NCBI GenBank assembly: GCA_018057585.1
Contig: JAGPDM010000005.1
Span: 1 to 32,600 of the forward strand
Length of the DNA: 32,600 nucleotides
Source of the DNA: Candidatus Saccharimonadota bacterium
GTDB taxonomy: Bacteria; Patescibacteriota; Saccharimonadia; Saccharimonadales; JAGPDM01
Direction of reading: 5' to 3'
The translations under genes were made by a program, and so were the position numbers. Positions 5,687-20,380 of this stretch are shown here, piece by piece. Below the pieces are notes generated by a model. That model worked only from the letters and a program-made list of their open reading frames with translations. It did not search any database and was not told the DNA's origin. The first letter of the stretch is position 1, and each line of letters starts with the position of its first letter.

Positions 5687-7111
5687 TTAGTTCAAATATT
5701 GCTTCAGCAGATTGGCTGTTTTCTTGCCCAAGGCTTTTTCTATATCCTCATGATCAGCCAACTTTAAGCTACGAACACTACCGAAGGTTTTGATAATTTT
5801 CTTTCGAGTGGCCGGTCCAACCCCCGGAATCTCCTCAAGCCAGCTTGCTGTGCCAGCTTTTCGCTTCAGATTACTGTGGTAGCTGACTGCGAATCGATGA
5901 CTTTCGTCGCGCACTCTTTGCAACAATTTAATAACATGTGATGATCTTGATAACAGAACCTCCTCCATGCCATCGTCTGTTGGCTTTATGATTGTTTCGA
6001 ATCTTTTAGCTAGGCCAATAAGTGGTATATCAATTGATTTCTGTTCAAGAGCGCTGAGCGCAGCGTTTACTTGACCCTTGCCGCCATCAATCAGAATTAG
6101 ATCTGGTTTTGACCAGTTTTCTAGATTTTTATCGCTAAATCTTCTACTAATAACCTCGCGCATGTGTGCAAAATCGTCATTACCTGGATGCCTCATTTTG
6201 AACTTTCGGTATTGAGACTTATCAGAAACTCCACCTGTGAAAACGACCATGCTAGCAACATTGTTAGTCCCTGACTGGTGTGAGATATCATAGCCTTCAA
6301 TCCTTTTAGGTATAACGTCTAGTTCGAGCAAATCTTGTAAACCACTTAAAGCTTGATCTTTGCTTATATCAAATAATTCATTGTTACCAAATAATATCTG
6401 TTTGTGCAGATTCTCAAGACCGGATAGTTGATCTCTTTTCCGGGCAGCTCTTTCGAAGTCTTGAGCCTTGGATGCCTGTTGCATCTCTTTTCTAATAGTT
6501 TTCTCTAGCAGAACACGCTCGCCCTTCAAGTATGCTGCAAGTTTCCTAAGATTAGCCCTGTAGTCTTCAAGACTAGTATGGCCAGCCTCAAGCCCTGGCG
6601 ATAAGCCTAGATGGTAATGAAGGCTGGCTCTGTCATATTTCTTTCCAGTCGGCCGGCTGTAATCAAACGGGAATATCTTGCGTAGCAATTTGAGTGCTGG
6701 TCTGATGTTGCCGACATAAGGACCAAAATATTCACCACCATCATCCAGTGGTCTCCTGACGACGCTGAGGATCGGATGTGAACTTTTAAAATCAATTCTG
6801 ACATACTGGTAATGCTTATCGTCCCTAAGCAGGACGTTATACTTTGGCATATAACGCTTAATCATCTCGCTTTCAAGGAATAAAGCCTCAATTTCACTGC
6901 CAACAACCAAAAGCTCTAAATCTTCAATGTCTTTGACTAAGAGATCGGTTTTGGTATCACGACTACGTGATTTCTGAAAATACTGCCTTACCCTATTCCG
7001 CAGCTTGGCGGCTTTCCCAACATATATAATCGTACCTTTTATGTCTTTGTACATATAGACGCCAGGTTCTAGCGGTAGATTATCTATTTTTTCTTGTAAC
7101 TTATCATTCAT
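5687..7111 (-). CDS. uvrC: UvrC, excinuclease ABC subunit C, cysteine-free variant
   Basis: UvrC makes both incisions in nucleotide excision repair. Visible domains: GIY-YIG nuclease (about 14-92, PGVYMYKD, IIYVGKA.LRNRV), UvrB-interacting UVR motif (about 200-237), RNase H-like nuclease with D275 (IEGYDISH), D342 (LILIDGGKGQ) and H405 (RDESHRFA), and a C-terminal HhH region (425-474, EEIPGVGPATR). At 474 residues it is much shorter than the about 610 of E. coli. The segment 148-190, where UvrC normally has four cysteines, has none; the whole protein lacks cysteine. ATG 7111 overlaps the end of the upstream HAD gene by eight bases (ATGAATGA), so the two are coupled. Repair function is likely kept because both nuclease centres are intact. 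Confidence 0.95.
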   Translation of the reverse strand: MNDKLQEKIDNLPLEPGVYMYKDIKGTIIYVGKAAKLRNRVRQYFQKSRSRDTKTDLLVKDIEDLELLVVGSEIEALFLESEMIKRYMPKYNVLLRDDKHYQYVRIDFKSSHPILSVVRRPLDDGGEYFGPYVGNIRPALKLLRKIFPFDYSRPTGKKYDRASLHYHLGLSPGLEAGHTSLEDYRANLRKLAAYLKGERVLLEKTIRKEMQQASKAQDFERAARKRDQLSGLENLHKQILFGNNELFDISKDQALSGLQDLLELDVIPKRIEGYDISHQSGTNNVASMVVFTGGVSDKSQYRKFKMRHPGNDDFAHMREVISRRFSDKNLENWSKPDLILIDGGKGQVNAALSALEQKSIDIPLIGLAKRFETIIKPTDDGMEEVLLSRSSHVIKLLQRVRDESHRFAVSYHSNLKRKAGTASWLEEIPGVGPATRKKIIKTFGSVRSLKLADHEDIEKALGKKTANLLKQYLN

Positions 7112-18443: not shown

Positions 18444-19955
18444 CTAGACTCGATCAAGCTCACTGGCGGTTGGCCACGGATTGAACTTACAACCTTGCAA
18501 ACTAATTGATTGCTGTTGCATAACGGGTGCCGGCTGGCCAGCACCACCACAGCTCGCATGACCGAAGCCGATAAAGTGGCCTACCTCGTGGTTAATAACC
18601 ATCGAACGATAGTCGTTGATATTGCCACCAGCACCATTCCAGGCAGTAGTGCCACCGTTCCAACGATCAGCATTTATTATTACATTACTACCGGCTCGAC
18701 AGCTCCAACTAGCACTACAGCCACTACTAAAACTCGGCACTAAGTTGGCGGCACTAAGCCACAACGTGAAAGTACAGCCGCTCTTAACTTCAGAGAAGCT
18801 GACCCTACCACTACCTGCCCAACTGCGTGAATCCGCTAAGGTTGATGCCGCTTTTGAAGCAAAGCTACTCAAATTTGCTCCACTTATTCCTTTAGCCTGA
18901 ATACAATAGGTGTAGTGGCTACCACCGCCTGAACGTTTTGGTGCAATTACCCGAGCTTTGGTTTTAATAATCAATTCAGCATTTGGGGCTTTCCCTTCGT
19001 TGACTTGAGCATAAATTGCATTTGTCAATTCAGTACTGTTGGTAATTTCCAATTTTGCACTGTCGATCAATGAATTAAGGTAGGCAGCTATGGCTGGTTT
19101 GCTTGGCACAAAGCTATCATCCTTCTTAGCGAACCAAGTTAATTTCGCCTGCTTACTAGGTACTATAGCTTTATCATTATTTTTAATACTCACTTTTTGC
19201 TCAAGCTTTGTATTTAGCTCGTCACGATTATGCTCGATATCTTTGGTCGATATCTCAGGCTTTTCGTCCTCAAAAGGCAGCTGAATCGTCTTGTTGTTTT
19301 TGTTCATTTTAGTATTGATCCACTCCTGCATCTTTTTGCGATCAACTTTTTTACCTGACTGTTCAGCTTCAATCTTAAATTGCTCTTTATCTTTTATTAT
19401 TTCGGCATTTTGTGGTGGTGTACGCAGCTGCTCATTAACTTCGTTTAGTTGTTCATTAAATTTTTTGTCAGATACTTTTAATGGTAAGTCATATTGCTGT
19501 TTTATAACTAGTTGCCAAACCGGCAGATAGCCCTTTTGTCGCCCGACTATTGCTGTACTTTTTACTTCGTCCATCAATATTCCAAGTTCTTGACGCTTAA
19601 AATTCCTAGCGTATGGCTCTGGCTTTTTGACGCCTTCTTTTTTTACGCCAGCTTCGCTCTCGATTGTTATTTCTTCCGGCACCAAGCTTTCGAGTTGTTT
19701 ATCGCTGTAGCCGCTGATTTTCTCAGTGCCGATATAGCTGTTGGGATAGGCCTTGTCTTTATAAACATAGCCAACTATCAAGTTACTAGCTACAAACACG
19801 AGCAGCAACGAGCCGGCAATAATTCCGATTAACTTCTTATTAATCTTGCGCTTTTTCTTTGCTTTTTTAGCATCAGGTTTTAACTTGCTATCATTAGTTG
19901 ACTGTAAGTTTTTCTCAGTAGGAAGATTTTCTGGATTTTCAACTTTATGTTTCAT
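18444..19955 (-). CDS. Membrane-anchored metzincin-type zinc protease (DUF3152)
   Basis: This 503-residue protein has a Lys-rich cytoplasmic N-terminus (about 1-41) and one transmembrane helix (about 42-64). Next comes a long external region that opens with AYPNSYIGTEKISGYSDKQ, as in YoaR/VanW-type peptidoglycan-binding-like (PF12229) domains. The C-terminal domain from about 330 matches DUF3152: SWAGSGRVSF, INADRW, zinc motif HEVGHFIGFGH (about 456-466), and Met-turn APVMQQQS, with several cysteines likely in disulfides. It is predicted to be an extracellular endopeptidase; the target is unknown. A start three codons upstream (19964) is possible, but the extended -10 TGGTAAAAT favours 19955. 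Confidence 0.88.
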   Translation of the reverse strand: MKHKVENPENLPTEKNLQSTNDSKLKPDAKKAKKKRKINKKLIGIIAGSLLLVFVASNLIVGYVYKDKAYPNSYIGTEKISGYSDKQLESLVPEEITIESEAGVKKEGVKKPEPYARNFKRQELGILMDEVKSTAIVGRQKGYLPVWQLVIKQQYDLPLKVSDKKFNEQLNEVNEQLRTPPQNAEIIKDKEQFKIEAEQSGKKVDRKKMQEWINTKMNKNNKTIQLPFEDEKPEISTKDIEHNRDELNTKLEQKVSIKNNDKAIVPSKQAKLTWFAKKDDSFVPSKPAIAAYLNSLIDSAKLEITNSTELTNAIYAQVNEGKAPNAELIIKTKARVIAPKRSGGGSHYTYCIQAKGISGANLSSFASKAASTLADSRSWAGSGRVSFSEVKSGCTFTLWLSAANLVPSFSSGCSASWSCRAGSNVIINADRWNGGTTAWNGAGGNINDYRSMVINHEVGHFIGFGHASCGGAGQPAPVMQQQSISLQGCKFNPWPTASELDRV

Positions 19956-19962
19956 ATTAAAC

Positions 19963-19968
19963 ATTTTA
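19963..19968 (-). promoter_or_regulatory. Extended -10 (TGgTAAAAT), leaderless start for metzincin gene
   Basis: TAAAAT with TG one base upstream, seven bases before ATG 19955. The upstream ATG at 19964 overlaps the hexamer itself. Confidence 0.55.
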
Positions 19969-19990
19969 CCACTGTTTTATCTTAACCAGA

Positions 19991-20286
19991 CTAAATGCCG
20001 CTATATTTTTCCATCTGCTTGGACTTTTCTGTAATACCGAGATTTTTGTCTATATCTTTGGCCTCGGCATAGCCTAGTGTCAGTTGATTATTTTTCTAAT
20101 TTATAAAAGCAAAGTCTGGACTACCAAGCTGTGTCTTTCTTGGTTCATTGATGGCCTAGATGTGTCCAATAGAGTTCATCGACCGCTCCATGCTAGGCGA
20201 TAGGCGTGTTCTTTGGCTCTATCTGATGCGAAGATGATAGAGACTTCTTTTAAGTAGTCTTCTATCTATTCTACAAACTGGTTCAT
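19991..20286 (-). pseudogene. Remnant of a restriction-modification enzyme N-terminus (Type ISP/IIG-like)
   Basis: This fills most of the 416-bp gap between the metzincin and the Glu-rich gene. Minus-strand translation from ATG 20286 gives MNQFVE, a stop, then IEDYLKEVSIIFAS with AKEHAYRLAW. A frame change follows, and the third frame reads AINEPRKTQLGSPDFAFIN, a stop, then LGYAEAKDIDKNLG and EKSKQMEKYSG. This is the typical N-terminal nuclease region of Type ISP/Eco57I-like restriction-methyltransferases, including the PD...EAK nuclease motif. There are several in-frame stops, at least one frameshift, and the methyltransferase part is missing. A GATAAT seven bases before the ATG still shows the promoter geometry of the neighbours. 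Confidence 0.8.
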
Positions 20287-20293
20287 ATTTACT

Positions 20294-20299
20294 ATTATC
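20294..20299 (-). promoter_or_regulatory. Relict -10 GATAAT of the restriction pseudogene
   Basis: GATAAT on the minus strand ends seven bases before the pseudogene ATG, the same spacing as at intact leaderless genes. Confidence 0.4.
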
Positions 20300-20346
20300 G
20301 TAACATCTTGGCAGTTATTTATAGATAACTGCTTCCAGTAAAATGC

Positions 20347-20352
20347 TATAAT
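20347..20352 (+). promoter_or_regulatory. Extended -10 (TGcTATAAT) for Glu-rich gene
   Basis: TATAAT with TG one base upstream. Transcription would begin near 20359, leaving a leader of about 22 bases with AGGAT seven bases before GTG 20381. This is one of the few leadered first genes. Confidence 0.6.
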
Positions 20353-20380
20353 TGGTAGAAATATTTATAGGATATAACCA

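Follow-up and report, generated by a model that had tools for sequence, protein, structure and literature searches.

The window, a stretch of 32,600 nucleotides from a Candidatus Saccharimonadota contig, encodes on its minus strand a protein in which one membrane helix is followed by a stem with a PG_binding_4 (PF12229) match and a C-terminal head of the DUF3152 family (Table 1). The first ATG places the end of the gene at 19964; the end given in a preliminary description of this DNA, which names no strand, is 19955 and corresponds to a second ATG (Met4). Residues 1-44 carry a net charge of +9 ahead of the helix, which predicts an N-in, C-out topology. The 416 bases upstream of the gene (19965-20380) are low in GC (0.361) and hold no listed open reading frame of at least 80 amino acids. 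Other genes of the window include one for a family 5 solute-binding protein (SBP_bac_5) and one for an M24 peptidase of aminopeptidase P type.

Table 1. Coordinates of the DUF3152 gene and its parts in the window.
Feature	Position	Strand	Reading or basis
Whole gene, 506 aa from ATG	18444..19964	minus	predicted DUF3152 metzincin with PF12229 stem and type II membrane anchor
Membrane helix, residues 46-64	19773..19829	minus	hydropathy maximum 2.44; helix 30-69 in model
PF12229 (PG_binding_4), residues 142-227	19284..19541	minus	E 5e-10, 40 bits; stem homology
DUF3152 (PF11350) metzincin-like catalytic head, residues 344-490	18495..18935	minus	E 5.2e-26; model and fold matches
Zinc site HEVGHFIGFGH, residues 459-469	18558..18590	minus	motif; kept in 53/56 aligned domains
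Met-turn APVMQQQ, residues 479-485 (Met482)	18510..18530	minus	M482 invariant in 11 aligned rows

Both Pfam matches lie far beyond chance, with 40 bits against a cut-off of 22.1 for PF12229 and 92 bits against 25.1 for PF11350, and by these scores the protein belongs to both families. The single helix, the DUF3152 domain, the HEVGHFIGFGH motif and the Met-turn listed in the preliminary description were all recovered; residues 459-469 match the metzincin signature HExxHxxGxxH, and Met482 follows downstream. Cysteines are found at positions 354, 397, 416, 422, 472 and 492. A YoaR/VanW-like region with PF12229 repeats had also been described. PF12229 is indeed present, within a stem some 280 residues long, but no VanW domain (PF04294) appears among the Pfam families listed up to E 10. 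Because a single PF12229 stretch passes the cut-off, the plural is unsupported, and a division of the stem into two repeats gained no support, its halves giving an hhalign probability of 9.5 when aligned against each other.

The head alone yielded an AlphaFold2 model with a pLDDT of 85 and a pTM of 0.84. In VIA-align this model matched snapalysin (1kuh) first (Z 12.5, rmsd 2.5, 119 aligned), followed by karilysin and matrix metalloproteases (Z about 10.5-11.8), and the best Foldseek match was 1ayk (E 8.3e-4). On this predicted model the head would have a metzincin, snapalysin-like fold, a structural reading for a domain still called 'unknown function'. A sequence search of solved structures returned one weak, apparently unrelated match (E 0.012), with serralysins at E 0.11 or worse. 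The full-length model, built from 11 rows, was confident for helix and head only; stem residues 68-346 had pLDDT values mostly below 50, the stem alignment containing only two full-length rows. Together with the stem homology reported below, the HMM matches and the predicted fold bear out the earlier suggestion of a surface protease in which a putative metzincin head follows a PF12229 stem.

In 3 of the 56 aligned domains the zinc motif is not intact. These possible pseudo-enzymes are L003 (1441-2175), L014 (1411-3078), which is a fused protein, and L036 (3001-3471), a Euzebya domain inside a 1505-residue protein annotated as belonging to the peptidoglycan DD-metalloendopeptidase family. As in these relatives without a zinc site, the head at our locus might be catalytically idle or purely structural; the window protein, however, retains all zinc ligands, the glutamate and the Met-turn, and we consider an idle head highly improbable.

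The PF12229 stem and its heads

When 25 chosen genomes of the window's class were searched for PF12229, 18 contained a match, 16 of them over the cut-off. Of 13 extracted PF12229 frames that lack a DUF3152 head, ten were scanned against Pfam. Four carried Beta-lactamase2, two YkuD, one VanW and one Polysacc_deac_1 as heads, and two had no further domain; one of the ten (L101) fell below the PF12229 cut-off. A stem HMM made from nine fused DUF3152 proteins matched all ten, mostly over the whole stem, with E-values of 9.4e-42 to 2.7e-17 (computed in the set of ten). Among 411 neighbouring ORFs that included the nine fused ones, the best other match reached E 0.017. Judged by this homology, the stem is a chassis common to several proteins, on which the head can be exchanged. 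Because it is homologous to stems that bear VanW, L,D-transpeptidase, deacetylase or Beta-lactamase2 domains, DUF3152 appears as one more head on a common stem, and the stem-and-head arrangement as a general scheme for wall enzymes of the window's order. Stems with deacetylase, Beta-lactamase2 and YkuD heads occur, for instance, in L088 (451-2163), L097 (1162-2958) and L100 (643-2079).

DUF3152 and PF12229 occurred together in eight of ten DUF3152 proteins scanned, six over the PF12229 cut-off and two just under 22.1 (L008, 20.6; L044, 20.5, its place scoring 23.3 in the genome-level search); of the remaining two, L004 gave a DUF3152 match but none to PF12229, and L006 is of the unfused form. 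Not every long DUF3152 frame has the stem match: among ten genomes with such frames, PF12229 was over the cut-off in the same frame in eight, below it in G067 (20.6 bits in the protein scan, no match in the genome-level search) and unmatched in G595. Ten actinobacterial loci were fetched, and a PF12229 scan of eight of their DUF3152 proteins (leaving out L036 and L039, and with L035 as head only) returned no match.

The names of the other heads found on this stem refer to chemistry on peptidoglycan, wall carbohydrates or beta-lactams, which makes wall peptides a possible substrate. The window protein would then be a wall-remodelling enzyme whose head, like those of the homologous YkuD (L,D-transpeptidase), deacetylase, VanW and Beta-lactamase2 proteins in related genomes, acts on the cell's own peptidoglycan, cutting peptide cross-links or stem peptides. 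The modelled fold, however, matches metzincins that cut proteins, and no metzincin is known to cut peptidoglycan. Unfused forms, moreover, do without the stem, and in 10 of 19 loci they adjoin a gene of M14 carboxypeptidase type. Wall remodelling is in our judgement an unlikely function.

Distribution and phylogeny of DUF3152

In a phylum-wide sample DUF3152 was limited to the window's class, with 13 of 379 genomes positive: 11 belong to its order, counting the genome of the window itself, and two are others of the class. Within the order, 67 of 392 genomes had a match (66 over the cut-off). Frames of at least 460 amino acids were found in ten of the 67, spread over nine families; in family f2 every match lay in a frame of 292 amino acids or fewer. 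A contig search with the whole protein gave ten relatives, labelled Candidatus Saccharibacteria (five), TM7 oral taxon 348 (one) and 'bacterium' (four).

Outside the phylum the search covered plasmid records, 14 control genomes and one whole-protein scan of genome contigs. By tblastn the head was found in 14 plasmid records of Actinobacteria (E 6e-3 or better), with one further row at chance level, and an actinobacterial query retrieved 15 plasmid records, again from Actinomycetota. Among the control genomes only Corynebacterium glutamicum had the domain. These results agree with the actinobacterial link proposed in the preliminary description. Rv3207c of Mycobacterium tuberculosis is listed as a DUF3152 protein (PMC3726780), and our literature search found no report of a DUF3152 function. 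A phage origin gained no support, as 50,697 phage records contained no match, and 11 pattern matches in viral contigs included no relative.

We built a tree of 56 domains, 46 from the phylum or its named relatives and ten from Actinobacteria, without an outgroup. Left out beforehand were L001 and L002 (the window); L019 and L021, being the same places as L008 and L006; L022 and L023, which lack DUF3152; and L045, L052 and L057, taken as copies of L024, L020 and L018. The actinobacterial rows split off from the 46 on a branch with support of 100/99, and from 45 with 99/100 (nine actinobacterial rows) after removal of the two longest rows. Identity between actinobacterial heads and that of the window was 27-35% in full-length tblastn matches and 34-39% in four rows of alignment A3. 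The GC3 of the head is as expected (z 0.25), giving no foreign codon signature; overall GC is 0.499 in the head versus 0.377 in the rest of the gene, with no excess at third positions.

The suggestion that the protein was acquired from a host fared differently by age. A recent host-to-symbiont transfer is unsupported, because the split is strong, identity is low and codon composition is native. An old transfer, in either direction, is possible, since the AU test did not reject Actinomyces oris joining the 45 rows (p 0.356) and the tree has no outgroup. A single strict clade of fused proteins gained no support. In the 56-row tree a starred set of 11 rows unites nine of them with two non-fused ones, and on the tree without the two longest rows the fused label needs four changes, although there a single clade of fused proteins was not rejected (p 0.233). 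The five rows nearest to the window are all fused in the full tree; in the reduced tree the nearest two are fused and the next three are not.

This distribution bears on the idea of a host-directed surface protease, anciently acquired from an actinobacterial host and acting on host envelope proteins. Actinobacteria are the hosts on which cultivated Saccharibacteria grow (PMC10633639; PMC8406219). The confinement of DUF3152 to the window's class within the phylum sample, and its recovery outside the phylum only from Actinomycetota plasmid records and one actinobacterium among 14 control genomes, point the same way. Host-directed action is a plausible hypothesis. Yet with 67 positive genomes out of 392 in the order, DUF3152 is not a general requirement of such cells, and the clean split from the actinobacterial rows, the lack of a compositional trace and the unrooted tree weigh against acquisition from a host. 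The combined scenario of old acquisition and host attack seems rather improbable to us.

Unfused relatives and their partner gene

Neighbourhoods were compared at 29 loci: nine fused (window included), one with another N-terminal part (L071) and 19 unfused, no two of which came from the same record by DNA comparison. Fused genes had no conserved neighbourhood among the loci examined; one BLAST cluster, c31, is represented close to the window gene and also close to L069, in different positions. An unexpected finding was made at the unfused loci. In 16 of the 19, a partner gene of one homologous family comes after DUF3152 on the same strand (E 2e-7 or better); L073, L080 and L081 lack it at that level. 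The partner protein has 241-310 residues (the L025 frame is over-extended), one membrane helix as read from the sequences and two invariant cysteines in 13 aligned rows (alignment A4). The members scanned (L028 4335-5081 and homologues) gave no Pfam match over a cut-off. We regard this uncharacterised protein as a candidate anchor or inhibitor of the protease.

With a partner model built from nine of the 16 loci we searched 50 genomes: 19 with unfused DUF3152, ten with fused DUF3152, 20 without DUF3152, and G094. Strong matches (E 3.1e-11 or better) were found in 12 of the 19 unfused genomes and in none of the ten fused genomes, the 20 without DUF3152 or G094. Nine of the 12 were already represented in the model, among them G626, whose DNA is identical to that of L028; G506 is likewise identical in DNA to L031, one of the 19 loci. 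The only new cases beyond those loci are thus G552 and G660, in both of which the partner directly adjoins DUF3152. In G244, from which L084 comes, a weak match (5e-5) also adjoins DUF3152. Further weak matches (E 4.9e-6 to 9.3e-4) in one of the ten fused genomes, five of the 20 without DUF3152 and G094 were confined to the first 84 of 253 model positions. From this separate occurrence in the searched genomes, which comprises few independent cases, the stem of the fused proteins may replace the separate membrane partner.

The M14-type gene beside unfused DUF3152 was assigned by BLAST cluster, with one member called by Pfam; in L028 (1696-3600) and homologues the protein also has a Big_5 domain. 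M14 matches were present in three of the ten fused genomes and in G094, in each case either on a different contig from DUF3152 or at a distance of over 40 kb, and the window's genome (68.5% complete) gave none.

In four genomes DUF3152 lies between an S10 gene with an 86-91-residue hydrophobic ORF and an L3 gene, in an apparent S10 ribosomal operon (L071 5443-7152, L073 5984-6724, L075 6687-7499 and L076 6247-6981). S10 and L3 were called by Pfam in L071 and by BLAST cluster in the other three, and in L075 and L076 the partner gene likewise lies between them. The unfused L074 gene (6559-7263) directly follows 16S-tRNAs-23S-5S rRNA genes (5S 6204-6313), and the long DNA stretches that L074 has in common with other unfused loci may be the same rRNA region.

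Predicted role and relation to known proteins

We infer that the window protein is probably a membrane- or wall-anchored extracellular zinc endopeptidase. The N-terminal helix would fix it in the cytoplasmic membrane, and the stem, by analogy with the heads on homologous stems, would run through or along the cell's own wall. In the modelled head three histidines would hold zinc, Glu460 would act as the general base and Met482 would lie in the Met-turn. Such an enzyme would most likely cut proteins at or just outside the cell surface, either remodelling surface proteins at the contact zone or releasing peptides for uptake, and proteins of the own cell, of the host or of the medium are candidate substrates. 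The M14 genes beside unfused relatives fit protein breakdown. Together with the window's solute-binding protein and aminopeptidase, and with a published remark that Saccharibacteria encode proteases, carboxypeptidases, metalloproteases and transporters for amino acids and oligopeptides (PMC7786006), they favour protein breakdown at the surface. Counted against the endopeptidase reading are the failure of our literature search to find a described DUF3152 function, the wall-related chemistry of the other heads, the low-confidence stem model, the lack of a conserved neighbourhood around fused genes and the lack of an M14 match in the incomplete genome of the window.

A broader and doubtful proposal is that Saccharibacteria took up an actinobacterial-type metzincin, which several lineages outside the best-sampled family mounted on the standard wall stem as an exchangeable, host-facing head. 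Other lineages would use the protease without fusion, alongside a membrane protein dedicated to it as anchor or inhibitor, and often together with a carboxypeptidase. If true, a host-facing protease would be kept at the cell surface in two ways, in cis and in trans. For the question of how small episymbionts act at the host surface, the DUF3152 genes offer a concrete set for removal tests: the putative wall-anchored protease, its unfused counterpart and the linked partner gene, in a family otherwise met here only in Actinomycetota.

Several known systems share parts of this architecture. Snapalysin, karilysin and matrix metalloproteases have the metzincin fold in common with the predicted head, but differ in sequence (about 11-21% identity). 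In snapalysin (M7) the third zinc ligand is Asp (HExxHxxGxxD); the window protein has His469 as its predicted third ligand. The archaemetzincin motif is given as HEXXHXXGXXHCX4CXMX17CXXC (PMC3427221), and it is not matched by the window residues after His469, ASCGGAGQPAPVM.

Actinomycetota DUF3152 proteins, such as WP_271289545.1 of Actinomyces oris, have the same catalytic domain over the Pfam cut-off and, in five rows checked, an N-terminal hydrophobic helix ahead of a C-terminal head as in the window protein; unlike it, those scanned have no PF12229. Unfused Saccharibacteria proteins (about 195-290 residues) have heads 42-64% identical to that of the window in the rows measured, but lack the stem and are mostly followed by the one-helix partner gene, often with the M14-type gene. 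Conversely, PF12229-stem proteins of related genomes have a stem homologous to that of the window, including the membrane helix, and carry a VanW, YkuD, deacetylase or Beta-lactamase2 head instead of DUF3152; relative to VanW/YoaR proteins, the DUF3152 head stands in the place of the VanW domain.
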